Of a DNA stretch of 59,041 bases, positions 25,090-56,268 are shown in pieces. A program made the translations under genes and the position numbers. The notes beneath the pieces are model-generated. The model saw only the letters and a list, made by a program, of their open reading frames with translations. It made no database searches and was not told where the DNA came from. Each line of letters opens with the position of its first letter. The first letter of the stretch is position 1. The stretch is from Gammaproteobacteria bacterium (GTDB lineage Bacteria > Pseudomonadota > Gammaproteobacteria > SG8-11): NCBI GenBank assembly GCA_024641505.1, contig JAHECY010000014.1, forward strand, positions 1 to 59,041. The letters are read 5' to 3'.

Positions 25090-25517
25090 GTTATCTCCTT
25101 TTGCCGACCATGGGAACTTCCAGGAACACGAACATGCTGACGCGACGATATCAAAGGTCTATCTATCATGCAATTGGTTGTGGCGCCAAGGCGGGGCAGT
25201 GACGTCTTTTACGGCGACGCCGTACCTCGAGAAATGAATCTACAACACTCGTTTTCCAGGTGCCATGGTAAATGTGCAGCCCAGAATGTGATGGGCGGGA
25301 GTGCATTGGCCGTGCTGCCAAAACCGTAAGTGAATTCCGGGATGGATGAAAGTGGCGCATAATTGGAGTAACCTTGGGTGTGAGTCAAACGACAGGGTAT
25401 ACCGTCAGGCGGGGCCAGCGGGAGGGAAGCGGCCCTTGAGGGTGAGGATCTTCCGACCCATTGCCGGGTTAGCCTTTGATGCCTGTCGGACGAAACCTAT
25501 AGTAAGTGGTGACGAAT
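25090..25517. other. Divergent leader region between the barrel and protease genes
   Basis: A 428-base non-coding stretch between two divergent envelope genes. GC-rich, hairpin-prone sequence lies at about 25405-25490 before the protease start. I compared it by eye with cyclic-di-GMP and cobalamin riboswitch consensus cores and found no match. Confidence 0.3.
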
Positions 25518-28500
25518 ATGGATTTTCATTTGACCTTTCCCCTTGCCGGTAGCGCAGCAACGTCGGGCGTTAAGCGACACGGGATTCTTGGTGGATCCAT
25601 AAAGCGATCGAGATTCTCTGTTTTGCGCCAATCTCTGATGGTGTTCACAGTCCTTGTTTTTCTTGGAGCTTGCACCGGTAACCAGGATTCCAACAACGGC
25701 GATATTGCAGGTGACGATGCGCGCAAGGGTGGTTCTGAATCACGCGTCATTAAAGTATCGTTTGCACCGCTGGATGCGGCGGGACTTGCTCGGCACATTG
25801 TATTGCTTGCGCAACCGGGGTCAGCCGCAGAGAAATCCTATCCGCTAACGGATATCCAGTCGCAAAACCTGGGTTGGATAAAAGTTGATGTTGAATTGCT
25901 CGCTGCAGGGCTTCATGCTTTACAATTGGCATATTACTTGGACCATCCCGAATTTGGACTGGTGCTGGTGGCCAAGAGCGATATCGTGGAAGAAGTCTGG
26001 GATGTTGACAGTATTCATGATTTGGACTTGAGCAAAATCGAGATTCATTTCACTGATAATGACAACGACGCCTGCGCAGATATCGTGGAAGTTACAAGAA
26101 ACTCTTCTCCGCATGATGGCGCCGCATTGCCGCCGCCCGAAACGCCAGTCGGTATCTCCTTGCTGGCAACGCCCGGCCAGATTTCCTTGAGTTGGTCGGC
26201 CGTAGCATGTGTCGCCGGGTATGCCATCTACTACAATACCGTTGGCGGTGTCACCATTGACGATGAAAAATTGGACAATATTGCCGCGACCCCGAGCGGG
26301 ACACGGGTAAGCTTTTCCCATTCCGGGCTGGCGTCGGGCACCGAGTATTTCTATCGCGTGATTTCCTATAATGCACTTGGCGAGAGTCCCCTGTCCGATG
26401 AGGTTAAGGGTTCGACGCCAGCGGACGGAACTCCCGGAGGCGGTTCGCAAACGGAGTTTACGATTTCCGGTGTTGTTCATGCCACTGCCGGAGGCCTTGC
26501 CGACAGTGATGTCAACGATCCAAATGCGTTTTACCGCAGCAATGATAATGCCGCGGACTTTCAATCCGTATCCAATCCCGTAACCATCGGCGGATTTGCC
26601 AGTGCTGTCGGTACCGGGGTGTCCGGTGATCGATTTGCGGGTACCGGCGACATAGTGGATACCTATCGTGTGGCATTGGCCGCAGGGCAATGGGTAAATG
26701 TTCAAATAGCGGATTTTAACCCGGCCAATCCAGCGCTAACCGATTTGGATCTTTATCTCTACCTGCCACAGGCTTCCCTGCCCGTGGTTTCTTCCGAATG
26801 TGATGTCAATGACAGCGAGTCGGTGTCCGCCCCGGCGGCCGGCGACTATGATGTGGTGGTGGTCGCTCGTTCCGGAATCACCAACTATGTTCTTGATGTC
26901 GGCGCACCCAGCGGGCAGCCATGCCCCACACTGGCAGTGCAATACGATTTCGTGCCGGGAGAAGCCATAGTCGACTACCGGTCCGATACGCGGACCGCTG
27001 CGGGTCAATCGGGCAAGGCGGTGCGGGTATTGATGTCAGAGTCACAACCGGCGGCCACCACGGTAGTGGCCGGCTATCGCCCGCCACGATACGCTGTCAC
27101 CAAGACCGATGCCGCCCTGCAAGTCAAACTCGATACCATTCAGTTCGTTAAATCTCTGCGCGCCCGGGCGGACGTTCTATCCGCGGACCTGAACTTTTTG
27201 CGCAAACCTTACCTGCAACCCAATGACCCCTACTATGCGCAGCAATGGCACTACCCGCTGATCAATCTGCAACAGGCATGGGACCAGACCACGGGCAGTA
27301 GCGATGTCGTGGTGGCGGTGGTGGATACCGGAATTGATATGGATCACCCTGATCTTGCGCAAAACATTGCGAGTTATGGCTATGACTTCATATCGGATCC
27401 CGGCATGTCGGGCGATGGTGATGGCATTGACAGTAATCCGGACGATCCCGGCGACCGACTCAATGGTGGCTCCAGCAGTTTTCACGGTACTCATGTGGCG
27501 GGCACTATCGCTGCCGTTGGCGACAACGGTATTGGGGTGACAGGCATTGCCTGGAACAGCAAAATAATGCCGTTGCGGGTGCTGGGTTCCGGTGGTGGTA
27601 CCGATTACGACATTATTCAAGCTGTTCGTTACGCCATTCAACTGCCCAATGACGCCAATATTGTGCCAGCTCAGCAGGCCCGGATCATCAATTTCAGCCT
27701 GGGAGGACCGGGTTTTTCTGCGGCCCTGCAGTCCGCCATGCAAGATGCGCGCAACGCGGGAGTGATCATCATCGCCGCAGCGGGAAACGAGGGTGTCGCC
27801 ATGCCTTCGTATCCGGCGGCTTTCGATGGCGTGATTTCGGTGGCTGCGGTCGATGTGGGAAAAAATCACGCCTATTACTCAAACTTCGGTGCCACCATTG
27901 ATATTGCCGCACCGGGCGGGGATCAACGTAAGGACGTGCGCGAAGGAATACTCAGTACCTTGGTGGATGACGCGGGAGCCGTCCCGAAGGCGAGCTATGG
28001 CTTTTATCAGGGCACTTCCATGGCGGCACCGCATATGGCAGGCGTAGTGGCGCTGATGAAATCGGTTTATCCCGCGCTGACCCCGGATGAGCTGGATGTC
28101 TTGATTTCTGCAGGCGCTGTTACTGAAGATCTGGCTGCTGATGGACCGGCCACCCGGGATGACAATTTCGGCTATGGCCTGATCGACGCCTTAAAAGCGG
28201 TACAGCACGCCCGGCAGCTCGGTAATGGTGGTGTGTTGCCACCGGTCTTGCGGGTAACCCCCAACCGGCTGGATTTCGGGTTTGGGGTGGATTCGATTGC
28301 ATTAACTACCGCGAACAGCGGCGGCGGCACATTGAGTATTCAGTCGATTGTCGCCGACGCGCCATGGCTGAGCGTCGCTGAATCCGCGGTTGATCAAAAC
28401 AAACTGGGGATTTATCTGGCGGCGGTAAACCGCGGCAACTTGCCGAATTCCGTTTATACCGCCAAGTTACGGGTGAGCACGAATGTCGGAGTGGTCGATC

Positions 28501-28865
28501 TACCCGTCACAATGCAAGTGGGGAAACCGATTTCGCAAGGCGACGCCGGGTTTCAATATATGTTGCTTGTGCATGCTGCTACCCGGAGTGTGTCGGGAGA
28601 GGTATCCTCCGCGGGTAACAACGGGAATTATCCGTTTTCATTTAAGGCAGTGTCGGCTGGCGAATACTATCTCATATCCGGATCTGATATGGATAATGAT
28701 GCCTTTATCTGTGACGCGGGTGAATCCTGCGGGGGGTATCCGTCCCTGGGCGGGCCGCAAAAAATCATAATCCAGAATGCAGATGTCAAGGGTCTGGAAT
28801 TTTACGTGAATTTTGCCATCGATTTTGGCGCCAATGCGCAATTCTATGGCGCTTATCGCCATTGA
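25518..28865 (+). CDS. Lipoprotein subtilisin-like serine protease (S8) with FN3 and PPC-like domains
   Basis: An 1115-residue predicted lipoprotein with lipobox FLGAC (C52). Domains in order: a linker; a fibronectin type III domain (about 210-300, ISLSWSAVACVAGYAIYY); a pre-peptidase-type beta domain (about 315-465, DLDLYLYLPQ, YDVVVVARSG); a propeptide-like region; and the peptidase S8 domain (about 565-900). The catalytic triad is complete: D603 in VVDTGID, H659 in HGTHVAGT and S834 in GTSMAAPH, with the oxyanion Asn in AAAGNEG. A C-terminal beta-sandwich follows. The ATG at 25518 is chosen; a GTG is 9 bases upstream. It is probably an outer-membrane-anchored endopeptidase for nutrient acquisition or surface-protein processing. 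Confidence 0.92.
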   Translation: MDFHLTFPLAGSAATSGVKRHGILGGSIKRSRFSVLRQSLMVFTVLVFLGACTGNQDSNNGDIAGDDARKGGSESRVIKVSFAPLDAAGLARHIVLLAQPGSAAEKSYPLTDIQSQNLGWIKVDVELLAAGLHALQLAYYLDHPEFGLVLVAKSDIVEEVWDVDSIHDLDLSKIEIHFTDNDNDACADIVEVTRNSSPHDGAALPPPETPVGISLLATPGQISLSWSAVACVAGYAIYYNTVGGVTIDDEKLDNIAATPSGTRVSFSHSGLASGTEYFYRVISYNALGESPLSDEVKGSTPADGTPGGGSQTEFTISGVVHATAGGLADSDVNDPNAFYRSNDNAADFQSVSNPVTIGGFASAVGTGVSGDRFAGTGDIVDTYRVALAAGQWVNVQIADFNPANPALTDLDLYLYLPQASLPVVSSECDVNDSESVSAPAAGDYDVVVVARSGITNYVLDVGAPSGQPCPTLAVQYDFVPGEAIVDYRSDTRTAAGQSGKAVRVLMSESQPAATTVVAGYRPPRYAVTKTDAALQVKLDTIQFVKSLRARADVLSADLNFLRKPYLQPNDPYYAQQWHYPLINLQQAWDQTTGSSDVVVAVVDTGIDMDHPDLAQNIASYGYDFISDPGMSGDGDGIDSNPDDPGDRLNGGSSSFHGTHVAGTIAAVGDNGIGVTGIAWNSKIMPLRVLGSGGGTDYDIIQAVRYAIQLPNDANIVPAQQARIINFSLGGPGFSAALQSAMQDARNAGVIIIAAAGNEGVAMPSYPAAFDGVISVAAVDVGKNHAYYSNFGATIDIAAPGGDQRKDVREGILSTLVDDAGAVPKASYGFYQGTSMAAPHMAGVVALMKSVYPALTPDELDVLISAGAVTEDLAADGPATRDDNFGYGLIDALKAVQHARQLGNGGVLPPVLRVTPNRLDFGFGVDSIALTTANSGGGTLSIQSIVADAPWLSVAESAVDQNKLGIYLAAVNRGNLPNSVYTAKLRVSTNVGVVDLPVTMQVGKPISQGDAGFQYMLLVHAATRSVSGEVSSAGNNGNYPFSFKAVSAGEYYLISGSDMDNDAFICDAGESCGGYPSLGGPQKIIIQNADVKGLEFYVNFAIDFGANAQFYGAYRH

Positions 28866-28985: not shown

Positions 28986-30230
28986 TTACAGGATCCAGGG
29001 CAGAAACCGGTATTTCACTTTACGCATGTATTCCCGGTATTCGGGGAAATGCTTTAAATGCCGTTCCTCGGTAAAAGCGCGGGCGATATAGATCCAGGCC
29101 CAGGCAATGTAGCCGACAATGTATTTTGCCTGCCAGAAATTTCGATAGAACACCGCCTGCATGAGCCAGAACAGCAATTTGGTGCTGACGCCGGGATGGC
29201 GTACCACGCCATAAGGTCCGCGGGTTTGCAGTTTGCGCAGGGTGACATTGGCTACCGAAGTGCCCAGGGACAGGCCGCAGCATACATGGATGAATAGTAG
29301 CAGAGCTTCCAGGCCCTTCATCACGTAGAGCCAGGTCATGTCGTTGACCACCAGATCCTGAGTTTGGTAGGTGACCACCGAGGGGGCGAATGGCAGCAGG
29401 GAGCCGGTAATGAAATTCAGCGGTGCGTAACACATGAAACATACCAGCCAGCCGCTGACCGTCAGGTCGATGGAGCGCGAGCGATTTTCCAGCCAGCGAC
29501 TTTCCATGAAATAGGCGAGGCTGGCATTGATAACATCCAACAGCCAGGCGCAGGAGGTGAGCACCAGCAACAAAGTCAACCACTCATGATCGCTGCGGTA
29601 TTGACCGTACCACTGGAGGCCGTAGAACAGATTGTAATACACTTGGGTGACCAATAGCGGAATGAAATACAGGCGCATCAAAAAAATCAACAGTACTTTG
29701 CGATTATAGCGCTTGCGCAAAACCCGAAACACTTGGCCCAGAGGAGCGCCTTTGGCCAGTTGCAGGCTGATCTGCTTCGCGATATGAATCAGCCGAATCG
29801 CCGGATCGTAAAAGTCTTCGCGGGCGGAATGCTTGCAAATCAAAGTTAAGGCGAAATACGGCAATCCCAGGATGAGATAATAGTGCAGAAATTTTTCGAA
29901 CAACCACTGGTTGGCGCGGAAAGTCTCCCCGGCGTAATACGGTTCCAGGCGATAAAAAAGATAGGCACCGTAAATGAGAATCAGCCACACCACGTAGCGT
30001 GCCAGCACCCGGCGCGCGAAACTCTGCCAGTTCCCGGGCAGCTGGAAACGGAACAGGCCGTGGCCGGTCAGTTGGCGGTACATATTCAGGGTGGCATAGA
30101 CCACCGCCAGCGCCACCAGCGTCCAAAGCCAGTTCCATTGCGTCAGGCCGAAATGGTGAAAGGTCAGCAAGCTCAAGCAAACCAGCAGGACATTGCACGG
30201 AATAAGAACGCTGGGGGGCAGTTGGTGCAT
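28986..30230 (-). CDS. Polytopic membrane protein with ICMT/PEMT-like C-terminus
   Basis: About 414 residues with many hydrophobic helices. The last ~90 residues match the isoprenylcysteine carboxyl methyltransferase / phospholipid methyltransferase family pattern: LRKLQTRGPYGVVRHPGVSTK, then FTEERHLKHFPEYREYM ending FLPWI. In that family the RHP and EE motifs bind S-adenosylmethionine at the membrane face. The N-terminal ~300 residues are a long extra membrane region I do not recognise. The start is uncertain: ATG 30230 has AAGAGAAG upstream, while an in-frame GTG at 30287 lacks an RBS. It is divergent from the multihaem cytochrome operon. Methyltransferase activity is inferred only from the C-terminal motif. 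Confidence 0.65.
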   Translation of the reverse strand: MHQLPPSVLIPCNVLLVCLSLLTFHHFGLTQWNWLWTLVALAVVYATLNMYRQLTGHGLFRFQLPGNWQSFARRVLARYVVWLILIYGAYLFYRLEPYYAGETFRANQWLFEKFLHYYLILGLPYFALTLICKHSAREDFYDPAIRLIHIAKQISLQLAKGAPLGQVFRVLRKRYNRKVLLIFLMRLYFIPLLVTQVYYNLFYGLQWYGQYRSDHEWLTLLLVLTSCAWLLDVINASLAYFMESRWLENRSRSIDLTVSGWLVCFMCYAPLNFITGSLLPFAPSVVTYQTQDLVVNDMTWLYVMKGLEALLLFIHVCCGLSLGTSVANVTLRKLQTRGPYGVVRHPGVSTKLLFWLMQAVFYRNFWQAKYIVGYIAWAWIYIARAFTEERHLKHFPEYREYMRKVKYRFLPWIL

Positions 30231-30344
30231 GGGGATGATCGACTTCTCTTGCGCTGGATGGAAGGAACGATAACCGGATTTAAACACATTTTATTATATA
30301 AATATCAGCAGCGGGTATATGGCTGCCTTGACGGCACGAAAAAC

Positions 30345-30438: not shown

Positions 30439-33042
30439 ATGTTGTGTGTGATTTTCGGGGGCAAGGTGCATCTTTCGCGTCGGACGTTATGGGTATGCTT
30501 TTTTATATTGGGTGGCATGTCAGGGATGGCGTATGCCGTGAATACGTTGCCAAGCAATCGCGTGTCCGATGTCGCCAATACCCGCCATAATTTCTCCGCC
30601 GCCGTGACACCGAATTTGCCCCCGGGTGAAAGCCGTAATGTACGTGCGGTCAGTGAGCAACAGATATGCGTTTTTTGTCATACGCCTCATGGTGGTCAGC
30701 TGCAGGCGTCGGTGCCCACCCCGATATGGAACCGCAGTCTATCCGCGGCGAGTTATGTGCCCTACAGCTCCGGATCGATTGATGCCACGGACATCAATCA
30801 ACCTGGCGGCGTCTCCAAGCTCTGCTTATCCTGCCACGATGGTACCCTGGCGATCGGCGCGGTCAACGTCCTGAATGGTGCATTTACCGACAAGAATCCC
30901 AGTACCGCTGATATCACCATGTCCGGCACCGACGGTCTTGGCCACATGCCCGCGGGTGCCGGTGTTACCACGGGGTTCACCCGCAATCTGGGTACCGATC
31001 TCACCAATGATCATCCGATATCCTTCACCTTCGACAGCAATCTCGCCAGCCGTGATGGAGAATTACGTGATCCGGCGCAGGTCTCGCATCTGGGCAATCG
31101 GGTGCCGGGGAAAGCGGCGCCGCTGGTACCGTTGGACAATAACCAAGTGCAATGCAGCAGCTGCCATGATCCACACATTCGGGATCAGGACCCCACGCAG
31201 AACATCAAGTTTCTGCGCCTGAACCGGTTTCAAAAACAAGCGCCGGTGGCCGGCGCGTTCAATGAAACCACGAATATCATTTGCCTGGCTTGCCATGACA
31301 AGGCCGGCTGGGTGGGTTCCGCGCACGCCAATCCCGATGTTGCCGATGAACGTTATTCCAATGCGGCGGCGGATCTGCGCCAGTTCCCCCGCGCCATGCA
31401 GGTCTGGGAATCCGCCTGCCTGACCTGCCATGACACGCATACCGTGCAGGGTGCGCGGCGCCTGCTGCGTGAGGGCGTCGAAAGCAAGGGCAGTCCCAAA
31501 GTCGGTGGCGCGCCGGCGTTGGAAGAAACATGCTATGCCTGCCATTCCGCCGACGGCAATACCTTAACCGCCCAGGGATACAATACCCAGGTGCCGGACA
31601 TCAAGACCGACTTCACCACGCTCTCGGTGCGCATGCCAATTTCCTCCTCCGACCAGCCCGCGGGTGAAGAACGGCATAACATCGGCAGCGTGACGCTGTC
31701 CGATCCGCTGGCGGCCCGCGATCACGCCGGCGCGGATTTCATCGAAGGCCGTGCCACCCTGGGCAAGGGCAATCTGCTCAACCGGCACGTGGAATGTACC
31801 GATTGTCACAACCCGCACCGGGTGATCAAGAACCGGCAATTCAACGGCAATCCCGCGGTGCCGGATGCCGCCGGCACGCACAATCATGGGGCCACGCATT
31901 CAAATCTCGCCTCCGGCGTGCTGCGCGGCGCATGGGGCGTGGAGCCGGTGTATACCAGCAATTCTTTTCACGTCGAACCCACGGATTTTCAAGTGAAGCG
32001 CGGCAATCCCCCGGTGGGTGGCGGCACCGCGGTCACCCAGAGTTATGTGACGCGCGAGTATCAGGTATGTTTGAAATGCCATTCCAATTATGGCTACGAC
32101 AAACCGCCGATGTTGGGATCCTTCGCCGGTGGCACCTCCCCGAACACCAATAATATGACTCAGTACACCAATCAGGCGCGGGAATACAATGCGCCCGTGA
32201 CTCACAAAGGCGAAAACATCAGCCGCGGCACCGATGGCGGCGCGGATTCAGCGTATAATTCGGGTAATCATCGTGGTTGGCATCCGGTGCTGCGCGAGAC
32301 CGGTCGTGACGCGGCGACCCGTCAGGCGGATGCCAATAACTGGATTGCACCGTATAACGGATCCAACCTGGGTGTTCAGACCATGTATTGTACCGATTGC
32401 CACGGTTCCGGCACGGCGCCCGGTACCGTGGCGCCTGATGGCGGAGAGAATGGCAAGCCCTGGGGACCGCACGGCTCCAATAACAATTTTCTGCTCAAAG
32501 GTCCGTGGAGTGGTGCCCGTAATGGTGGTACCGGGGAAGCTCAGTTCAACAGCAGTGATACACGTGACCATTTGTGTTTCAAGTGTCACGTCTATGATCA
32601 ATATGCCAATCCCAACGCTCCCGTCGTGCAGGACAGTGGGTTTTCCGGAGGCGGCGGCATGTGCATGGGCATGTGCGGTGGCGGCATGGGTGGTGGCATG
32701 GGCGGTGCGTTCAATAATCTGCACATTTTCCACGCCAATGTGGTGAGCGCCTTCCGCTGCAATTTGTGTCATGTCGCGGTGCCCCATGGCTGGAAAAATA
32801 AAGCGCTGTTGGTGAATCTCAACGATGTGGGGCCGGAAGGTGGCTATCCGGGTACCGGCAATGAGGTGCGTTTTACCACCGCGGGTTATGTCAACGGCCC
32901 CTATTACAATCGGGCGGCGCTGAAGGTGGTAAGTTTCGCGCCCAGTGGCACCTGGTCCCCGGGTAACTGCGGTTCCCGCAGCGGTCCCACGGGCGTGGCA
33001 TGGATGACCAGCGCCCAGCAGGGGTGCCAGAATGTACCTTGA
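30439..33042 (+). CDS. Undecahaem c-type cytochrome
   Basis: An 867-residue exported protein. The signal peptide ends about GMAYA-VN. Eleven CxxCH haem-binding motifs begin at C77, C129, C239, C282, C327, C365, C453, C544, C651, C713 and C774. Many are followed by HxPH- or xDPH-like patterns (CHTPHGG, CHDPHIR, CHNPHRV), typical of multihaem cytochromes of the NrfB/OmcA/DmsE type. Between haems 10 and 11 lies a Gly/Met/Cys-rich insert (residues 737-756, with CMGMCGGGMGG) that could bind copper or act as a flexible loop. It probably conducts electrons in the periplasm or at the surface. The next genes encode a propeller protein and a system II-type haem-attachment set, so I infer a dedicated locus. 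The exact redox partner is unknown. Confidence 0.92.
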   Translation: MLCVIFGGKVHLSRRTLWVCFFILGGMSGMAYAVNTLPSNRVSDVANTRHNFSAAVTPNLPPGESRNVRAVSEQQICVFCHTPHGGQLQASVPTPIWNRSLSAASYVPYSSGSIDATDINQPGGVSKLCLSCHDGTLAIGAVNVLNGAFTDKNPSTADITMSGTDGLGHMPAGAGVTTGFTRNLGTDLTNDHPISFTFDSNLASRDGELRDPAQVSHLGNRVPGKAAPLVPLDNNQVQCSSCHDPHIRDQDPTQNIKFLRLNRFQKQAPVAGAFNETTNIICLACHDKAGWVGSAHANPDVADERYSNAAADLRQFPRAMQVWESACLTCHDTHTVQGARRLLREGVESKGSPKVGGAPALEETCYACHSADGNTLTAQGYNTQVPDIKTDFTTLSVRMPISSSDQPAGEERHNIGSVTLSDPLAARDHAGADFIEGRATLGKGNLLNRHVECTDCHNPHRVIKNRQFNGNPAVPDAAGTHNHGATHSNLASGVLRGAWGVEPVYTSNSFHVEPTDFQVKRGNPPVGGGTAVTQSYVTREYQVCLKCHSNYGYDKPPMLGSFAGGTSPNTNNMTQYTNQAREYNAPVTHKGENISRGTDGGADSAYNSGNHRGWHPVLRETGRDAATRQADANNWIAPYNGSNLGVQTMYCTDCHGSGTAPGTVAPDGGENGKPWGPHGSNNNFLLKGPWSGARNGGTGEAQFNSSDTRDHLCFKCHVYDQYANPNAPVVQDSGFSGGGGMCMGMCGGGMGGGMGGAFNNLHIFHANVVSAFRCNLCHVAVPHGWKNKALLVNLNDVGPEGGYPGTGNEVRFTTAGYVNGPYYNRAALKVVSFAPSGTWSPGNCGSRSGPTGVAWMTSAQQGCQNVP

Positions 33043-33175
33043 AAAATAGCGTCACTCTTGCCGCGAAGCAAGGCGCGCCATATCGCCAGGGGGTCCGGTT
33101 GTCGGCCGCGGTCGGGCCAGTTCCTGCGTACGTTCAAAGAGCATGGTATTCGCCACAATGCAAAGTTGGCCATTG

Positions 33176-35314
33176 ATGAAACAGCGCTGCAAACTGTCCA
33201 TGCCGCACCCCAGGTTCGGAACGTGGTGGCTGATTGGTGTGGCGCTGTCGCTGCCAGTGTCGGTGGAGGCGCAGCCCACGGTGGCGTATTCCGTCAATGC
33301 CCAGGAGAGCAGTCTGTCGATTTACGATGTGCGGGATGACGGTACCTTGCGATACCGACGACATCATGTGCTGCCCAAGGCGCCCTCGTCGGTACTGTTG
33401 CATCCGAATCACCGATTTCTTTATGCGCTGGCCAAGGCCTCCGATCAGATAGCCATCTATCGGGTCGCCGCCGACAGCGGCGATATTACGGAAATTCCCG
33501 GTTCACCGGTGACCATCAACGCCCGGTCGCCCTTTGATCTGGCGTTCCATCCCAATGGCGAATTTCTCTACGTTGCCGCGCGCTTCAGCGGCGTGGCGGC
33601 GTTGCGTGTCAACGGCGCCACCGGCGCCATCGAAGAGCTCGCGGGCTCGCCGTTTCCCGCCCAGGAACGTACCCGCTCCCTGGCGGTGCATCCCTCGGGG
33701 CGCTTTCTTTACGCGACCAACGCCTACAGCAACAGCGTGTCCGTGTTCACGATCGAGCAGCAATCCGGGCGTCTGTTGCCACAACCGGACCTGACCGTGA
33801 GCAGCGGCCAGCAGCAACCGGCGCCGCGCCAGGCGTTACGTCTGCAGGACATGCCGGCGCTCGGCGGCGGGGTCCCGTATCAAATTGTGGTGCATCCCGG
33901 TGGACGCTATGCGTTTGTCAGTAATTGGGCGGGGGCCAGCATTTCGGTATTCATGATCAACGCCGAGGATGGCGCGTTGCGGCTGTTGCACGGCAAGCCA
34001 GTGGCGACCGGGCTCAATCCCTATGCGCTGGCGGTGCATCCTTCGGGAAAGTATATCTATGTCGGTTACTGGGGTGACAACAAAGTCGCGGGTTACCGGT
34101 TTGATGAAACGGATGGCGGTTTGCGGGAATTACCCGGTTCGCCGTTTGACAGTGCCGGTACGGCGCCGGTAGCGATACGTTGCACCGATGCCGATCATTG
34201 CTACGTGGTGAACAGCTGGAGTAACAGCATTACTTTATTGCAGGTGCGCAGCGACGGTACCCTGGTGCCGCACAATACTACACAGACCCGGTCCGGTCCG
34301 GTGCAATTGGCCTTTGGGCCAGCGGCCGAACAGTCGGTACCACGGGAAGATGTCCTGTTGTTGACCGCGGGCGGCGGCACGGTGGCGTGGTGGCATGGGT
34401 CACGCCCGGAACAATTTTCCGTGGTGCCGGGAGTGCCGGTCTTCGATGATCTGGCGGTGTTTCCCGAGGCCGGTCTGGTCTATCTGATCCCGCGGTCCGA
34501 GCCTGCATTGCGTGCTTACCGGATGTCTCCCGACGCCGGTACCTGGGAGACGCTTGCCGACATCGGTATGGATCAGCAACCCACGGCATTGCTGGCGGAC
34601 CGGCGTGCAGGATTCTTATATGTTTACGATGCCAATGGCGCGATCACGGCCTATGCTCTTGATGCGGCCACCGGCACGTTGCACCAGAGCCAGTATTCCT
34701 TGCAACCGGGAATCGGCGTGGTGGCCTCGGCCCTGGACGCAGCCTCCCGTTACTTATTCACCGCCGGTGGCACGCCACCGTTGTTGCGCTTGTTTCGCTA
34801 CGGCGACGCCTGGGGGCCGGTGATGTCGGACATGACGCTGTACGGACCCCCGGTGGCGTTGCTGGCGCGGCCGACCGCCCTGCTCACGGATCCATCCGCC
34901 AATTTTCTGCTGGTAGGCACCGGGGCGCCCAATCGGATCAGCGTCTATCGTCATCATTTTCAGAGTGGTCTATTGGACGATACCACGGTGCGCCAACAGG
35001 CGCTGACCGGTGAACCGCGCGCCCTGGCCATGAACGATGCCGGCGACACCCTCGGGGTCGTGACCGGAAGTCCGAATACCCTGGTAAGTTACCGTTTCCA
35101 CAACCTGGACGGACGTTTGGAACGGTTGACAACCCTGCCCTTATCCGGGGTACCGAAGGGCGTGCAGGCCGGGGCGCAGGGTTTATACGTGCTATTGGCA
35201 GGGGAAATACAGGTCTATATGCCGGAGGCAGTCACCGGTACAATGTCGCTACGCCAACGATTACCGTTGGCATTCGAGGTTAACCATATAGAGTTGTTGC
35301 CCGTGGGGCGTTGA
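33176..35314 (+). CDS. Exported YVTN/lactonase-type beta-propeller protein
   Basis: About 712 residues. The ATG at 33176 is chosen since it begins the signal peptide MKQRCKLSMPHPRF...SVEA-Q; the RBS is weak and ATG 33197 is an alternative. The mature protein is a repeated propeller with blades of the type SLAVHPSGRFLYATNAYSNSV, YQIVVHPGGRYAFVSNWAG and YALAVHPSGKYIYVGYW, as in YVTN and 6-phosphogluconolactonase-like (lactonase_2) proteins. The length suggests two propellers. No enzymatic motif is certain. Its position between the multihaem cytochrome and ResB suggests a structural or docking partner of the cytochrome. Confidence 0.82.
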   Translation: MKQRCKLSMPHPRFGTWWLIGVALSLPVSVEAQPTVAYSVNAQESSLSIYDVRDDGTLRYRRHHVLPKAPSSVLLHPNHRFLYALAKASDQIAIYRVAADSGDITEIPGSPVTINARSPFDLAFHPNGEFLYVAARFSGVAALRVNGATGAIEELAGSPFPAQERTRSLAVHPSGRFLYATNAYSNSVSVFTIEQQSGRLLPQPDLTVSSGQQQPAPRQALRLQDMPALGGGVPYQIVVHPGGRYAFVSNWAGASISVFMINAEDGALRLLHGKPVATGLNPYALAVHPSGKYIYVGYWGDNKVAGYRFDETDGGLRELPGSPFDSAGTAPVAIRCTDADHCYVVNSWSNSITLLQVRSDGTLVPHNTTQTRSGPVQLAFGPAAEQSVPREDVLLLTAGGGTVAWWHGSRPEQFSVVPGVPVFDDLAVFPEAGLVYLIPRSEPALRAYRMSPDAGTWETLADIGMDQQPTALLADRRAGFLYVYDANGAITAYALDAATGTLHQSQYSLQPGIGVVASALDAASRYLFTAGGTPPLLRLFRYGDAWGPVMSDMTLYGPPVALLARPTALLTDPSANFLLVGTGAPNRISVYRHHFQSGLLDDTTVRQQALTGEPRALAMNDAGDTLGVVTGSPNTLVSYRFHNLDGRLERLTTLPLSGVPKGVQAGAQGLYVLLAGEIQVYMPEAVTGTMSLRQRLPLAFEVNHIELLPVGR

Positions 35315-35321
35315 GTGTTGC

Positions 35322-36329
35322 ATGCGTTTTTTAGCTTCCCTGAAAATTACCCTGCTGGGTATGATATTGCTGGCGCTGGCTGCGGCCCTGAGCTACGGCA
35401 ATCCCGCCGATGTATCCGTGTGGGTGTTGGTTGCGCCGCTGGTCCTGCTGGCGGCGAATTTGACGGCGGCCATTTTCACCAACCCGCGTATTAATCGCCA
35501 AACCGGTCTGCTGGTGTTTCACGTGGGGCTGCTGGGATTAGTGATCCTGGTGGCCATCGGGCGCCTCACGCACCTGGATGCGCACATCGAATTGACTCAA
35601 GACCAGGAGTTTTCTCCGGACCTGTTGCTCGATACCAAAGCGGGACCGCTGCATGCGGGGAGTATTGGTCAGGTTATTTTTCGCCAGGGCCCTTACACCG
35701 TGGATTATGAAGTGGGTATGAAGCGGGGCTTGACCTTCAGTCATGTGCTGGTGCCGCAGGCCGACGGCAGCGCGCGCGAAGAAGTCATTGGAGATGATCG
35801 ACCTCTGGTGTTGCAGGGGTACCGGTTTTACACCTCGTTCAACAAAGGATTTTCGGTATTGCTCACCTGGGAGCCGGATGGCGGTGTACCCATCAGCGGT
35901 ACGGTGAATATGCCATCCTACCCGTTATTTGATTATCGACAGGACAATGTGTGGCAGGCGCCGGGAGGGCCGGAGGTCAAGTTTTGGCTGCAATTACAGA
36001 CCGGCATCACGGAAAAGCAGGCCTGGACCCTGGATGGCCGCAACTCCCAGGGGGTGCTGGTGGTCACAAGTGACGAGCTGCGCACGGAATTGCGGCCCGG
36101 CGAGGCGGTGACATTGCCCGGCGGGCAGTTGCGGTATGAACGCCTGCTGACCTGGATGGGGTATGCGGTGTTTTATGACCCCACCATCCGCTGGTTGTTT
36201 TTTGTCGCGATCATCAGTGTAATCGGTTTGGGGTGGCATTATTGGGTGAAAATGGGATCGCGCCTGTTGCCGTCGGCACACGAGTTGCGGCCGGAGGGGC
36301 TTAGCGACGCGGTGGAGAGGAGTAGTTGA
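35322..36329 (+). CDS. resB: ResB-like cytochrome c biogenesis protein (system II)
   Basis: A 335-residue membrane protein with three N-terminal membrane helices (residues about 8-25, 30-50 and 63-81), a large periplasmic domain, and a final helix near 290-310 (WLFFVAIISVIGLGWHYW). This matches ResB/Ccs1, which together with CcsA/ResC exports haem and ligates it to apocytochrome c. Conserved ResB features include the FHVGLLGLV region and YDPTIRWLFF near the end. It is shorter than the typical ResB (about 450), as in some dedicated CcsBA systems. It lies 7 bases after the propeller gene and just before ccsA. Confidence 0.85.
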   Translation: MRFLASLKITLLGMILLALAAALSYGNPADVSVWVLVAPLVLLAANLTAAIFTNPRINRQTGLLVFHVGLLGLVILVAIGRLTHLDAHIELTQDQEFSPDLLLDTKAGPLHAGSIGQVIFRQGPYTVDYEVGMKRGLTFSHVLVPQADGSAREEVIGDDRPLVLQGYRFYTSFNKGFSVLLTWEPDGGVPISGTVNMPSYPLFDYRQDNVWQAPGGPEVKFWLQLQTGITEKQAWTLDGRNSQGVLVVTSDELRTELRPGEAVTLPGGQLRYERLLTWMGYAVFYDPTIRWLFFVAIISVIGLGWHYWVKMGSRLLPSAHELRPEGLSDAVERSS

Positions 36330-36330
36330 G

Positions 36331-37188
36331 GTGACAGAACAGAGTTTTGCCAGTGAATTGCCCTGGTTATGGGCCGGATTGTGCGCTTATGCATTGGCGA
36401 CGTTCACTTCCGTCTGGGGGGTGGTGACCGTGCAAATGCGCGGTCTGTTGGTGCACGAAAAACGCTATGAACAGCTGGTACTGGCCCTGCTGGTGACCGG
36501 TGTTGTGTTATTAACCCTGGCCATTACCGCACGTTGGGTGCGCATCGGTCACGGTCCATGGATATCCTTGTTCGAATTGCTGGTCAGCCAGCTTTGGAGT
36601 TTGGGGCTGGTGTTTTCCCTGGTCTACTGGCGGGTGCCGGCACTGCGTGCCAGCGCCGTGGTGGCGTTGCCGGTGATGTGGGTATTGGGTACCTGGGTGC
36701 TGACTCTGGAGCCCACCGCCAGTCATTTTCCGGCCACCTACTATAACAACTGGAAATGGGTGCACGTGCTGCTGGGTAAAGCGTATCTGGCATGTTTGCT
36801 GATTGGCGTGGGGCTGAGCGGTGTCATGATGGCGCGCCGTTTCTTCCCGGCGAGTCGCCGCTGGTTCGCCATTATGCCCGGCGATGACATTATCGACCGC
36901 ATCGCCTGGCGTGTGATGATACTGGCTCTGGTATTCGATAGCTTGATGCTGATCGCCGGCGCCGTCTGGGCGCAGGACGCCTGGGGCAGGTATTGGTCCT
37001 GGGATGCGTTGGAAACTTCGGCGTTCCTGACCTGGCTCGGTTTGGCGGTGGGTTTGCATTTGCGCGCGACGTACAAGATTCCCTACTGGGTGGGCGGCGC
37101 AATTATCTGGGGAGTATTTTTCCTGGCGTTTACAACCTATTTTGGTACGCCTTATCTGAGTCCCGCGGCCCATAAAGGGGTGGTATGA
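36331..37188 (+). CDS. ccsA: CcsA/ResC-type haem handling protein (system II cytochrome c synthase subunit)
   Basis: A 285-residue integral membrane protein with about eight helices. It carries the tryptophan-rich WWD signature WGRYWSWDALETSAF, which presents haem on the periplasmic face, plus conserved histidines in NWKWVHVLLGKAY and GLAVGLHLRATY. The start is GTG, one base after the resB stop, and the 3' end overlaps the next gene by four bases (ATGA). With ResB it would form a system II haem lyase. The genome also encodes system I (50536-57563), so this pair is probably dedicated to the adjacent multihaem cytochrome. Confidence 0.9.
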   Translation: MTEQSFASELPWLWAGLCAYALATFTSVWGVVTVQMRGLLVHEKRYEQLVLALLVTGVVLLTLAITARWVRIGHGPWISLFELLVSQLWSLGLVFSLVYWRVPALRASAVVALPVMWVLGTWVLTLEPTASHFPATYYNNWKWVHVLLGKAYLACLLIGVGLSGVMMARRFFPASRRWFAIMPGDDIIDRIAWRVMILALVFDSLMLIAGAVWAQDAWGRYWSWDALETSAFLTWLGLAVGLHLRATYKIPYWVGGAIIWGVFFLAFTTYFGTPYLSPAAHKGVV

Positions 37189-37868
37189 AAGCGCAACGTC
37201 CGATCAGTGAATTTCAAAATGTGGTCAATCTGATATCGCTCCTGGCGGTGCTGGTCATTGGTGGTTTGATCGCCGATTTGAGTCGCAGTCCGGGTTTACG
37301 GTTTCAATATCCGTTGTCCGGTCCGCAGCAGCAGCCACGCCAGTTTGCGCAGCTGAACCCGGCCGTTAGACACGAGGCCCAGGAGCGCTTCGATCAGGGT
37401 GTTGCCCTGCTGCACGCCAAACGCTACGACTACGCGGTCACCGCGTTGACGCGCGTGGTGGAACTGGTGCCGAACATGCCGGAAGCCTATGTAAACCTAG
37501 GCTTTGCCCTGCTGGGTCAGGAACAGTATGAACAGGCCGGGGAGTATTTCAATCAGGCCACGGTGATGCGTCCCAATCAGGCCAATGCTTACTGGGGGCT
37601 CGCCAATGCCCTGGAAGGTATGCAAGATTATGAAGGAGCGCTTGGCGCCATGCGCAGTTATATTCATTTATCGCAAGCCGGTGATCCCTTCGTCGTCAAG
37701 GCACGCGCCGCCCTTTGGGAGTACGAGGCGCGCCTGGGCCGTATCAAGGGTGTGACCATTGATGATAAAAATCAGTTCACGCAAGTACCCCAGACTGCCG
37801 TACCACCCCAAGGCGCCGCCGGAGCTCAGGATCAAACCGGTAAGGCGGCACCCGCGACCGCGCCGTGA
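37185..37868 (+). CDS. Membrane-anchored TPR protein
   Basis: A 227-residue protein with one N-terminal membrane helix (residues about 15-32) and TPR repeats between about 65 and 165 (RFDQGVALLHAKRYDYAV, AYVNLGFALLGQEQYEQA, AYWGLANALEGMQDYEGA), then a disordered Pro/Gln/Ala tail. TPRs bind other proteins. In system I the TPR domain of CcmI (NrfG in nitrite reductase assembly) holds the apocytochrome C-terminus, so the same chaperone role is inferred here. It overlaps ccsA by four bases (ATGA) and the next gene by four bases (GTGA), showing tight coupling. Confidence 0.85.
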   Translation: MKAQRPISEFQNVVNLISLLAVLVIGGLIADLSRSPGLRFQYPLSGPQQQPRQFAQLNPAVRHEAQERFDQGVALLHAKRYDYAVTALTRVVELVPNMPEAYVNLGFALLGQEQYEQAGEYFNQATVMRPNQANAYWGLANALEGMQDYEGALGAMRSYIHLSQAGDPFVVKARAALWEYEARLGRIKGVTIDDKNQFTQVPQTAVPPQGAAGAQDQTGKAAPATAP

Positions 37869-38410
37869 ACAAGTCGCGTCACCTCCGGTGGCGGCATCTG
37901 GTGGCGATGGGAGTCGCGTTGCTGCTGATGGCTTGCGATCATGATGCACCGCCCCCCGCATTGAAGGTGCAACTCGGCGCAACATTTCCGTTACTGCATT
38001 TGGAAGATCTGCAAGGCAAGGCCGTGGACACGTCGGAGCTGCGGGGCAAACCCTGGGTGCTCAATGTCTGGGCCACCTGGTGTCCCCCCTGCCGCAAGGA
38101 ACTGCCCAGTTTGCAGCGCATGCAAGCATTATTGAAAGACGATGGCGTGGTGGTGCTGGGGATGGCTGTTGATGATGACGCGCACCGGGTACGGGAATAT
38201 CTCATCGATCGCGCGATTCAGTTCATGTCTTACCGTGATCCTCAAATGCGCGTCGCCAACGAGGTTCTGGGAGTGCGTATGTATCCGGCGACGTTCATCG
38301 TTGATCGCAATGGCGTGTTGAGTCTGATTGTCGAAGGTGAACGGGAATGGGATCGGGGTGTTACGCTAGGGCGGGTGCGCCAGGTGCTCGGGCTGACATC
38401 GACCCGGTGA
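37865..38410 (+). CDS. TlpA/ResA-like lipoprotein thioredoxin
   Basis: A 181-residue periplasmic thiol-disulfide oxidoreductase. The lipobox LLMAC (C24) predicts membrane anchoring. The thioredoxin fold has the active site WCPPC (C73, C76) and a cis-Pro near YPATFIVD. ResA and CcmG proteins of this type reduce the CxxC of apocytochromes before haem attachment. Being the fourth and last gene of the ResB-CcsA-TPR set, it supplies reductant to the same assembly. The start is GTG with a four-base overlap. Confidence 0.9.
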   Translation: MNKSRHLRWRHLVAMGVALLLMACDHDAPPPALKVQLGATFPLLHLEDLQGKAVDTSELRGKPWVLNVWATWCPPCRKELPSLQRMQALLKDDGVVVLGMAVDDDAHRVREYLIDRAIQFMSYRDPQMRVANEVLGVRMYPATFIVDRNGVLSLIVEGEREWDRGVTLGRVRQVLGLTSTR

Positions 38411-50535: not shown

Positions 50536-51153
50536 ATGCTGGAAATTCAACAACTGGAATGTACGCGCGGTGACCATGTTCTGTTCAGTAACCTGAACTT
50601 TTCCCTGCGTGACGGCGAAATTCTCCATGTGCGCGGTTCCAATGGCAGCGGCAAAACGAGCCTGCTGCGCATTGTTTGCGGATTATTGCTGCCGAGCGCC
50701 GGGCAGGTGCGTTGGGCCGGGGAGAATATCCGCAGTTTGCGTGAAGAGTACACGGGCGACGTGACTTACCTGGGTCACCTCAATGGCATCAAAGGTGATT
50801 TGAGCGGCCTGGAAAACCTGCAACTGGGTGGCAAGCTGGACGGGCTGGACGTTGCGGAGCAGGAGGCTCTGGGTGTTCTGGGAAAAATGGGTTTAAGGGG
50901 GCGTGAAGATTTGCCCACTAAAGTGCTGTCCCAAGGCCAGAAACGGCGGGTTGCCTTGGCGCGTTTGTTGTTATGTAAAACCAAACTCTGGATACTGGAT
51001 GAGCCTTTTGTTGCCCTGGATGTGAAGGCAGTGGCCTACTTGCAGTCGGTGATTCAACAGCACCTTGAACGCAATGGCATGGTGATTTTCACCACACATC
51101 AGGAAGTGGAAATTAACACGGGCCGTGCCCATCATATCGATCTGGATTTATGA
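50536..51153 (+). CDS. ccmA: Haem exporter ATP-binding protein CcmA
   Basis: A 205-residue ABC ATPase with Walker A GSNGSGKT (34-41), signature LSQGQKRRVALAR and Walker B LWILDEP followed by the H-loop TTHQ. With CcmB and CcmC it drives release of haem-loaded CcmE on the periplasmic side in system I cytochrome c maturation. It is the first gene of ccmABCDEFGHI and overlaps ccmB by four bases. Confidence 0.97.
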   Translation: MLEIQQLECTRGDHVLFSNLNFSLRDGEILHVRGSNGSGKTSLLRIVCGLLLPSAGQVRWAGENIRSLREEYTGDVTYLGHLNGIKGDLSGLENLQLGGKLDGLDVAEQEALGVLGKMGLRGREDLPTKVLSQGQKRRVALARLLLCKTKLWILDEPFVALDVKAVAYLQSVIQQHLERNGMVIFTTHQEVEINTGRAHHIDLDL

Positions 51154-51833
51154 GTCGACCGGGAGTGTTTGACGCTTTTCGCGCCGTAGTCGCCCGGGAT
51201 ATGACCCTGGCTATGCGCCGTAAGACCGATGTGCTCAACGCGCTGGCCTTCTTTATTATAGCGGTCACCTTGTTTCCTCTGGGGGTTGGGCCGGAAATCG
51301 AGACGCTGCGGGCGATCGCGCCGGGAGTCATCTGGGTGGCGGCGCTGCTGGCGGCCATGATGTCTCTGGGACGAATTTTTTCCGGCGATTATGAAGACGG
51401 CACCTTGGAGCAAATGCTGTTAGGCAATTTTCCGGTTTCAATCATGGTATTGGGAAAAGTTTTTGCCCACTGGTTGTTAACTGGCGTACCGCTGGTATTA
51501 TTGTCCCCTTTGCTCGGTATGCAGCTGGGGCTTGGGGAAGAAGCCCTGTGGGTGTTGATCTATACCCTGCTATTGGGTACTCCGGTGCTGAGCTTGATCG
51601 GTTCCGTGGGTGCGGCACTTACCCTCGGGGTGCGGGGGGGTGGGGTGTTAATCTCGTTGTTAGTGCTGCCTCTTTATGTGCCGATATTGATCTTCGGCGC
51701 TGGTGCGGTCGAGGCATTGGGAACCCCCAGTGGTATTCAGCCGTACTTATCGATACAGGGAGCCATTTTGGCCCTGAGTGTGGCCTTGACACCCATGGCA
51801 ACCGCCGCGGCACTGCGTATTAGTATGGAGTAG
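51150..51833 (+). CDS. ccmB: Haem exporter membrane subunit CcmB
   Basis: A 227-residue integral membrane protein with six helices and the CcmB motifs FSGDYEDGTLEQMLL and ALTLGVRGGGVLISLLVLPLY (split in the middle of one helix). It pairs with CcmA as the transporter core. ATG overlaps the ccmA stop. Confidence 0.96.
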   Translation: MSRPGVFDAFRAVVARDMTLAMRRKTDVLNALAFFIIAVTLFPLGVGPEIETLRAIAPGVIWVAALLAAMMSLGRIFSGDYEDGTLEQMLLGNFPVSIMVLGKVFAHWLLTGVPLVLLSPLLGMQLGLGEEALWVLIYTLLLGTPVLSLIGSVGAALTLGVRGGGVLISLLVLPLYVPILIFGAGAVEALGTPSGIQPYLSIQGAILALSVALTPMATAAALRISME

Positions 51834-51841
51834 GACAGGAC

Positions 51842-52588
51842 ATGGCGAAATCCCAAACATGGTTATATTTTTCCTCACCTAAGACATTTTACCCGTTAGC
51901 CGGAAAATTGATTCCCTGGTTTACCGCCCTGGCCATCGTGCTAACCGTTATCGGGTTGTACATGGGGTTTTTTGTCGCGCCAACGGACTATAAGCAGGGC
52001 GACAGCTACCGCATCATTTTTATTCACGTGGCCGCCGCGTGGATGTCCATGTTCATTTACGCGGTGATGGCAGGGTATGCGGTTATCGGTCTCGTCTGGA
52101 ATGTGAAGCTGTCGGAAATGATGGCCTCATCGCTGGCCCCAACGGGCGCCATTTTTACATTTCTCGCGTTGTGGACCGGCGCCTTATGGGGCAGGCCTAC
52201 CTGGGGAGCCTATTGGGTGTGGGATGCGCGCCTGACGTCTGAATTGATTTTGTTATTCCTTTATATTGGTTATATGGCCCTACAATCCGCAATTGATGAT
52301 CCCCGGCGTGCCTCCCGGGCGAGCGCACTTTTGGCGATCGTCGGAGTCATAAACCTACCAATAATTTACTTTTCCGTACGGTGGTGGAACACGCTGCATC
52401 AGGGAGCGTCCGTGAGCCCGGAAATGGCCCCGAAAATGGCCGCGGACATGAAGACAACCATGATGGTGATGGTGTTCGCGTTTTGGATGTATGCCATTGC
52501 CATTGTGTTGGCACGGGTACGGACGCTGATTCTGGAAAGGGAAAAAAATACCGCTTGGGTCGTGGAGTTATTGGAGGCGAAACAATGA
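51842..52588 (+). CDS. ccmC: Haem handling protein CcmC
   Basis: A 248-residue, six-helix membrane protein. It carries the WWD haem-presenting motif (WGAYWVWDARLTSE) and flanking histidines (FIHVAAAWMSMF, RWWNTLHQG). CcmC loads haem onto CcmE. It begins 8 bases after ccmB and its stop overlaps the ccmD start. Confidence 0.97.
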   Translation: MAKSQTWLYFSSPKTFYPLAGKLIPWFTALAIVLTVIGLYMGFFVAPTDYKQGDSYRIIFIHVAAAWMSMFIYAVMAGYAVIGLVWNVKLSEMMASSLAPTGAIFTFLALWTGALWGRPTWGAYWVWDARLTSELILLFLYIGYMALQSAIDDPRRASRASALLAIVGVINLPIIYFSVRWWNTLHQGASVSPEMAPKMAADMKTTMMVMVFAFWMYAIAIVLARVRTLILEREKNTAWVVELLEAKQ

Positions 52589-52773
52589 GCCAGTGGCATA
52601 GCATTGGCGAATTTTTCGCGATGGGTGGGTACGGGTTCTATGTATGGGGCTCCTATCTGGTTACCTTCGGATTCATTATTGCTGAAATATTTCTGGTGCG
52701 TAAACAGCGTCGCGATGTGCGCAAACAGATTGCCCGACTGGCACGGCTAAACGACAAGGTGGATGAAACATGA
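52585..52773 (+). CDS. ccmD: Small haem exporter accessory protein CcmD
   Basis: A 62-residue protein with GGAGG before the ATG, overlapping the ccmC stop. One membrane helix (VWGSYLVTFGFIIAEIFLV) follows the conserved FFAMGGYGFYVW stretch, and the tail is basic. It fits CcmD, which releases holo-CcmE from CcmABC. Confidence 0.9.
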   Translation: MSQWHSIGEFFAMGGYGFYVWGSYLVTFGFIIAEIFLVRKQRRDVRKQIARLARLNDKVDET

Positions 52774-53237
52774 AAGCACGTGAGAAGCGATTGGCTATGG
52801 TCATCGGCGGTTTAACCGCCTTGGGCGCGGCCGCGGGATTGGTTTTTTATGCTCTGGGCAGTGGCGTGTCATTTTATTACAGCCCTACCCAGGTGAAAAA
52901 TAACGAGGCTCCCCTGGACCGGACGATTCGTCTGGGCGGCTTGGTGCAAAAGGGTTCCTTGCAGCGGGAAAACGATGGTCTCACGGTACATTTCGTGGTG
53001 ACCGACTATGCGCAAAACGTCGATGTCACCTTTAAGGGAATTCTCCCGGACCTGTTCCAGGAAGGTCAAGGCGTGGTGGCCCAGGGCAAGATGGCGAGCA
53101 ATGGCGGATTCACCGCCATGGAAGTGCTGGCCAAGCACGACGAAAACTACATGCCACCGGAAGTGGCGGACATGCTGAAAAAAGGTGAGCAAGCCAACAA
53201 GGGTGCTGCTGCCACCCCAGTGAGTACTCAAAACTAG
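52770..53237 (+). CDS. ccmE: Haem chaperone CcmE
   Basis: A 155-residue periplasmic haem chaperone with an N-terminal membrane anchor and OB-fold. The haem-binding motif HxxxY is H123-Y127 in AKHDENYMP. Covalent haem on this histidine is passed to CcmF/H for attachment. Overlaps ccmD by four bases. Confidence 0.97.
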   Translation: MKAREKRLAMVIGGLTALGAAAGLVFYALGSGVSFYYSPTQVKNNEAPLDRTIRLGGLVQKGSLQRENDGLTVHFVVTDYAQNVDVTFKGILPDLFQEGQGVVAQGKMASNGGFTAMEVLAKHDENYMPPEVADMLKKGEQANKGAAATPVSTQN

Positions 53238-53248
53238 GAGACTAAAAG

Positions 53249-55261: not shown

Positions 55262-55264
55262 ACG

Positions 55265-55798
55265 ATGTTGAAATGGTACATCCCGCTGGGGATATTTTTA
55301 ATTTTGGCGATATTCCTTGGTATTGGTTTAACCAAGGATCCACGGGAAATTCCCACGCCGTTCATTGGCAAGCCGGCGCCGACATTCAAGTTGTCGCAAT
55401 TGGATGATTTCCAAAAAACCTTCTCGCCCGAGGATATGAAGGGCAAGGTGTGGATGCTGAACGTCTGGGCCTCCTGGTGTGTGGCTTGTCGGGCGGAGCA
55501 TCCGTTGCTGCTGGAAATGGCGCGCCGGGGAGATCTCAATATTTATGGTCTCAACTATAAGGATCAGCCCACGGACGCCAAGAACTGGCTTGCCCAGCAA
55601 GGTGGTAATCCCTACGGGCTCATTGTTGTGGATTTTGACGGCCGGGTGGGTATCGATTATGGGGTTTACGGCGTGCCGGAGACCTTTGTGATCGACAAGC
55701 AGGGTACCATTCGCCACAAAGTCATTGGTCCGATTACCCGGGAAGAGCTTACCACCAAGTTGCTTCCCTTGATCAAACAACTGGAGCAGCAGGGATGA
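55265..55798 (+). CDS. ccmG: Periplasmic thiol reductase CcmG (DsbE)
   Basis: A 177-residue membrane-anchored thioredoxin-like protein with active site WCVAC (C72, C75) and cis-Pro in YGVPETFVID. It keeps the apocytochrome CxxCH reduced. The ATG is 3 bases after the ccmF stop and the gene overlaps ccmH by four bases. Confidence 0.95.
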   Translation: MLKWYIPLGIFLILAIFLGIGLTKDPREIPTPFIGKPAPTFKLSQLDDFQKTFSPEDMKGKVWMLNVWASWCVACRAEHPLLLEMARRGDLNIYGLNYKDQPTDAKNWLAQQGGNPYGLIVVDFDGRVGIDYGVYGVPETFVIDKQGTIRHKVIGPITREELTTKLLPLIKQLEQQG

Positions 55799-56268
55799 GA
55801 AGAGTCGCGGGATTGATTTTTTGCCTGCTATTGCCAATGGCGAGTTTGGCGAAAGAGGCGCAGTTCATGGCATTGGATCCGGAATTGGAAGAGCGCGCCA
55901 ATGCGTTATCCAGTGAATTGCGTTGCCTGGTGTGCCAGAACCAGACCATCGCTGATTCCAACGCGCCCCTGGCCAAGGATTTAAAGCAGCAAGTGCGCGA
56001 GCAATTGAAAGCAGGGCGGACTAACGACGAAATCGTCGATTATATGGTGCAGCGTTACGGAGACTTCGTGCTGTATCGGCCCCCGGTCAAGGCGACCACG
56101 ATTTTGTTATGGACCGGACCCGCGCTCTTGTTGCTGGGTGGCGGTATCTTATTATTTGTATCCATGCGCAGTCGCATAGCGCGCAGTAACGCCACCTCCG
56201 AACTTTCAGTGGAGGATATCAGTCGCGCCGAGCGTTTGTTGCAGTCCGAGCAAGAGGGTAAAGCATAA
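55795..56268 (+). CDS. ccmH: Cytochrome c maturation protein CcmH (short, CcmL type)
   Basis: A 157-residue protein with signal peptide, the LRCLVCQNQ motif (C44, C47) and a C-terminal membrane helix. It forms mixed disulfides with apocytochrome and cooperates with CcmF. The stop overlaps the ccmI start. Confidence 0.95.
   Translation: MRRVAGLIFCLLLPMASLAKEAQFMALDPELEERANALSSELRCLVCQNQTIADSNAPLAKDLKQQVREQLKAGRTNDEIVDYMVQRYGDFVLYRPPVKATTILLWTGPALLLLGGGILLFVSMRSRIARSNATSELSVEDISRAERLLQSEQEGKA

Follow-up and report, generated by a model that had tools for sequence, protein, structure and literature searches.

Within a 59,041-nt stretch of DNA from a gammaproteobacterial genome (contig JAHECY010000014.1; G000:C192, G000 being the source genome; hereafter the window), an 11-haem cytochrome c gene and a beta-propeller gene are followed by four closely spaced genes, resB, ccsA, a tetratricopeptide repeat (TPR) gene and tlpA (hereafter the quartet), which we predict to encode a compact system II cytochrome c synthase (ResB and CcsA), a TPR holder protein and a TlpA-type thiol reductase. 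The undecahaem cytochrome of the Uet pathway is named UetJ (PMC10734462, PMC5371394, PMC12575090), a name that we extend to the window cytochrome and its relatives. The quartet is probably kept specifically for the haem loading of UetJ-family 11-haem cytochromes, with other c-type cytochromes being matured by the Ccm system (system I). What is new here is a short ResB subfamily and its tight, exclusive pairing with UetJ. That system II genes occur with the Uet/MHCR cluster was already on record before this analysis; the accessible Uet/MHCR text, which does not include the original Uet paper, is silent on the exclusivity, on the coupling of resB and on the subfamily of short ResB proteins.

ResB proteins were sorted into two size classes, short (320-370 aa) and long (~580-750 aa). 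In a first sample of 143 genomes, mostly one per family, 17 have a strong match to UetJ, and 16 of these encode a short ResB (15 found with the Pfam model and one, G080, by tblastn), as opposed to 0 of the 126 UetJ-negative genomes (Fisher p 3e-20, a value that ignores kinship). The seventeenth genome (G001, 79% complete) has the TPR and TlpA genes and, where a contig ends, a weak ccsA-like fragment. The reverse test used a separate draw of 398 genomes from the phylum, 24 of which have a short ResB; outside the window, UetJ lies directly upstream of the short resB in 20 of 20 assessable cases, while 3 of the 23 non-window genes lie at contig ends and hence are not assessable. Both samples rule out a chance neighbourhood of UetJ and the quartet. 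A preliminary description of this locus had linked the cytochrome family to the ResB-CcsA set, and this link held: far from usually occurring without the set, the family is almost always accompanied by it, and no short ResB was found without the cytochrome. The short ResB (~335 aa) is a subfamily of its own that in both samples occurs with this cytochrome and nowhere else.

The pairing is also evident in gene order. Among 77 UetJ genes from named genomes with at least 1 kb of downstream sequence, resB begins no more than 400 nt downstream in 54, and 27 of these junctions are 4-nt ATGA overlaps; resB lies further downstream for 11 and is absent from the locus for 12. Among these 12, L078, L084 and L090 belong to genomes that also hold a quartet-bearing locus, and for L119 the same contig has a quartet on a different stretch (L155). 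The pairing spans Gamma-, Alpha- and Betaproteobacteria, and evolutionary distances for UetJ correlate with those for ResB (r 0.70) and CcsA (r 0.74) beyond 2000 permutations, the third comparison among these proteins giving r 0.92; common vertical descent contributes to this correlation. As a separate observation, the UetJ gene at L119:9932-12355 is directly followed by RuBisCO- and carboxysome-shell-like genes.

The genomes that carry the quartet generally have a second maturation system. The window itself contains a Ccm system I operon (ccmA, B, C, E, F, G, H and I at 50536 to 57563, plus strand; ccmD was outside the check), which goes unmentioned in the preliminary description. Because this complete operon is in the same genome, the quartet is an addition to the general machine. 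The source genome has a single ResB and four Cytochrom_C_asm proteins, namely CcmF, CcmC, the window CcsA and one on contig C126 that we take to be YpjD-like. In the first sample CcmF accompanies the short ResB in 15 of 16 genomes, and Ccm is present in 16 of the 17 UetJ genomes as well as in 43 of 49 further ones; long ResB, found in 25 other genomes of that sample, occurs without CcmF in 16. The quartet could instead be a general second maturation system for haem or iron limitation, carried along with the cluster when this is transferred horizontally, in keeping with the proposed mobility of the cluster (PMC9751133) and with a few UetJ-bearing metagenome-assembled genomes (MAGs) that lack CcmF. 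Such a system should occur without UetJ too, but the short ResB never did so in either sample, and we consider this explanation very unlikely.

The six genes are consecutive open reading frames on the plus strand, just as first described. The cytochrome gene (30439 to 33042) encodes an 867-aa protein with an N-terminal signal sequence and, in agreement with the preliminary description, exactly 11 CxxCH motifs and no variant ones, while the other open frames of the window reach two at most. Because just one other frame reaches even two, a chance origin of the 11-haem count is excluded. After 100 nt follows a secreted lactonase-type beta-propeller of 723 aa (33143 to 35314; PF10282), which stands beside UetJ in part of the genomes only, and after a further 7 nt the short ResB/CcsB (35322 to 36329; 335 aa, four predicted membrane helices), assigned by a partial PF05140 match (34 bits) and its AlphaFold model. 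CcsA (36331 to 37188; 285 aa, GTG start, PF01578 Cytochrom_C_asm) begins 1 nt beyond resB. The TPR protein (37185 to 37868; 227 aa, Pfam TPRs), periplasmic and, as read from its sequence, membrane-anchored, and the TlpA/ResA-like thioredoxin lipoprotein (37865 to 38410; AhpC-TSA/Redoxin, CPPC at residue 73, lipobox LMAC) are each joined to the preceding gene by a 4-nt overlap, so that the tight coupling claimed for the last four genes is confirmed. A promoter and terminator scan of the locus gave signals at or below chance level.

ResB and CcsA fit a system II synthase. In ResB, H67 of the third predicted membrane helix is invariant in 41 aligned sequences, and the AlphaFold model (mean predicted local distance difference test score, pLDDT, 87.9) has as its best structural match the CcsB half of CcsBA 7s9z (Z 8.6, root-mean-square deviation 3.4, 207 residues), with the match at rank 3 of the fold search scoring Z 6.4. 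CcsA matches the Helicobacter hepaticus CcsBA (7s9y) with E 6e-21; its H145, H243 and H281 align with H761, H858 and H897 of 7s9y and are invariant in 31 sequences, as is the WGRYW-WD (WWD) motif, one neighbour of the Trp motif being variable. The pair thus has the WWD motif and three histidines in CcsA, and the membrane histidine and periplasmic domain in its ResB partner, that characterize system II. For the thiol branch, a TlpA-like lipoprotein is encoded at the locus, where no CcdA or DsbD is found; DsbD is on a different contig, and TlpA is missing from the sets of many relatives. Contrary to the preliminary description, the module is accordingly not fully self-contained.

Nor does the quartet appear to belong to one cytochrome. 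Contig C148 of the source genome carries a full Uet-like cluster, comprising a tetrahaem cytochrome, a PpiC-type isomerase, two trihaem cytochromes, NHL proteins, a second 11-haem UetJ, a propeller and, where a porin would be expected, a 629-aa open reading frame; no quartet is present beside this UetJ as far as the contig end. Conversely, no uetA-I genes lie beside the window UetJ, so the window locus is a UetJ-plus-Ccs module rather than a full Uet cluster. Because there is a second UetJ on C148 and just one ResB in the genome, one set appears to serve at least two cytochromes, that is, probably a family of UetJ paralogues, and the notion that the cytochrome has its own assembly set is not supported. 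Several relatives likewise have two UetJ-propeller pairs followed by one quartet. It is conceivable, though in our judgment unlikely, that the quartet matures all Uet/MHCR cytochromes (tetrahaem UetA, trihaem UetD, E and G, and UetJ). In many genomes the set does form part of the whole cluster, and the published MHCR cluster combines seven multihaem cytochromes with CcsXAB (PMC9751133). Yet the coupling of resB is to uetJ in particular; in the source genome the set goes with the window UetJ and the uetA-I-like genes are on C148; and where a genome combines compact 11-haem relatives with an OmcE-like tetrahaem gene, it has Ccm but lacks a short ResB.

In six loci (L114, L125, L132, L138, L140, L142), resB comes after UetJ and no neighbouring ccsA was detected; these genomes also encode Ccm. 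This arrangement would suit a ResB that acts mainly as a UetJ-specific chaperone, handing the apoprotein to system I with CcsA being optional, as would the adjacency of the set to ccmABC in several genomes (in L082, L155 and L162 genes reading as ccmA, B and C come after the quartet). We nevertheless consider this role very unlikely. All six genomes have a fourth PF01578 (Cytochrom_C_asm) homologue; a ccsA-TPR pair is found elsewhere in four of them (L157, L158, L159, L161), with only a TPR match within the stretch examined in the remaining two (L156, L160); and the catalytic residues of CcsA are kept across the 31 aligned sequences. Because both halves have been kept after the rearrangement, this clade argues that all the parts are needed.

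Neither motif type nor haem number explains why UetJ would require a special synthase. A non-canonical haem motif can be rejected as the reason, since all 81 UetJ genes examined have 11 CxxCH, and so can a need for CcsBA imposed by many haems, since compact 11-haem relatives (~570-590 aa) occur in G098, G125 and G129 with Ccm and without a short ResB. UetJ has ~79 residues per haem, compared with ~52 in the compact relatives, and the reason may lie in its long loops or in the demands of folding. As side observations, L170, L171, L172 and L174 hold a different cluster in which a tetrahaem OmcE-like gene and a compact 11-haem cytochrome precede genes for 8 and 7 haems; L170 and L172 also have a 23-24-haem gene close by. 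In G098 this cluster seemingly splits the ccm operon, with ccmAB ahead of it and the genes from ccmC onward behind it.

Several observations weigh against specific loading of UetJ by the quartet. The UetJ loci L086, L089, L111, L112, L076, L077 and L080 lack resB, the search covering the locus only. Six of the 49 further UetJ genomes lack CcmF, most genomes being MAGs, and unless the gene is missing through incomplete assembly, the set might be general there. One of the six, a 99% complete MAG (G085), also lacks CcmC and CcmE; either the assembly has a gap, or this genome is a real exception that would have the quartet as its only system. The source genome has two UetJ genes but one quartet. 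Finally, no sequence reason for a special synthase was found beyond the long loops (79 versus ~52 residues per haem), and as its motifs are all canonical, Ccm could in principle load UetJ.

If the quartet does act directly on UetJ, ResB-CcsA would pass haem via the membrane histidines to the periplasmic WWD site, close to which the TPR protein would keep the secreted apo-UetJ, while TlpA, recharged by DsbD, would maintain the UetJ cysteine pairs in the reduced state. Haem would then be joined to all 11 canonical CxxCH motifs, Ccm taking no part, and the loaded cytochrome would be exported for extracellular electron transfer. More tentatively, the quartet, in an organism with system I, may represent a CcsBA isoenzyme specific to its substrate, which it would recognize by protein structure rather than by an unusual haem motif; it would load an OmcE-related extracellular conductor, with production of enzyme and cytochrome coupled via overlapping genes. 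The wider question is why some bacteria have two complete cytochrome c maturation systems; here the second system goes with a single cytochrome family whose haem motifs are ordinary, which makes synthase specificity testable. In practice, UetJ production in Escherichia coli may need co-expression of resB-ccsA-TPR, and the short ResB offers a clean genomic marker of the Uet electron-uptake pathway.

The cytochrome has relatives at 50-64% identity in many proteobacterial genomes (457 matching stretches, from which 79 distinct loci were taken), including one locus of a Ca. Tenderia sp. (L115) and one of a biocathode MAG; by architecture and these relatives, it appears close to the UetJ of the literature. 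Residues ~45-245 are homologous to OmcE (profile match to 7tfs, E 2.6e-32), including a TKHDLS-type histidine. The AlphaFold model of UetJ, from 53 aligned sequences, is too poor for use (mean pLDDT 52). At the C-terminus (window 32970-33042), nearly all named loci have a conserved cysteine followed by a short tail to the final proline, with a second conserved cysteine ~19 residues upstream; the pattern is less constant in the wider phylum sample, and the pair could form a disulfide or a sorting signal. The window UetJ also has a Gly/Met/Cys-rich insert, GGGMCMGMCGGGMGGGMGG, at residues ~738-756 (gene 30439-33042), shared in similar form by the C148 and G001 paralogues and by none of the other aligned relatives. 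It resembles the tails of giant multihaem frames elsewhere in the genome. The largest, on C131 (L202:1887-11804, plus strand), is a putative 3306-aa stop-to-stop open frame that ends in a Gly/Met-rich tail and has a CxxCH about every 26 residues, 129 in all, a very large number for one cytochrome. Three others on the minus strand have Gly-rich tails and 79 (L203:4553-10774), 51 (L203:2-4408, cut at the stretch edge) and 43 (L204:3427-7002) motifs.

Upstream of the cytochrome, a divergent gene (28986 to 30287, minus strand) encodes an isoprenylcysteine-methyltransferase-like membrane protein; in L082, L163 and L164 a gene similar to it by eye lies, also divergent, just before resB. Beyond it is a subtilase with PPC and FN3 domains (25506-28865, plus strand). 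In Geobacter, the protease OzpA processes the cytochrome OmcZ.

Among known systems, the closest in gene content are the Uet cluster (uetABCDEFGHIJ) of Ca. Tenderia electrophaga and the MHCR cluster of Ca. Thiomicrorhabdus electrophagus (PMC9751133, PMC10734462, PMC12575090), the latter with 30 genes, including CcmA-I and CcsXAB, and common to Ca. Tenderia and Azoarcus (PMC9751133). These clusters combine an 11-haem cytochrome with tetrahaem, trihaem, peptidyl-prolyl isomerase, porin and NHL/propeller genes, which C148 matches without the quartet, whereas in the window only the other UetJ, a large propeller of the lactonase type and the quartet are present. Genes for ccsAB/resBC beside cytochrome genes, with Ccm also present, have been reported in Ramlibacter and others (PMC8805035). 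The quartet shares with CcsBA/ResBC (7s9y, 7s9z; Bacillus subtilis ResBC) the CcsA histidines and WWD motif and the ResB fold and membrane histidine, but its ResB has roughly half the length of the long ResB proteins in the same class, and its host genomes keep system I. The analogy drawn in the preliminary description to Wolinella NrfI and CcsA1 stands at the level of mechanism, these being extra CcsBA isoenzymes tied to particular multihaem cytochromes, and fails for the recognition signal: the Wolinella enzymes recognize the unusual motifs CXXCK and CX15CH (PMC12285233), while all 11 motifs of UetJ are CxxCH. Lastly, OmcE, a filament-forming cytochrome with inter-subunit histidine coordination (PMC9473688), is homologous to the N-terminal ~200 residues of UetJ, but has 4 haems rather than 11.

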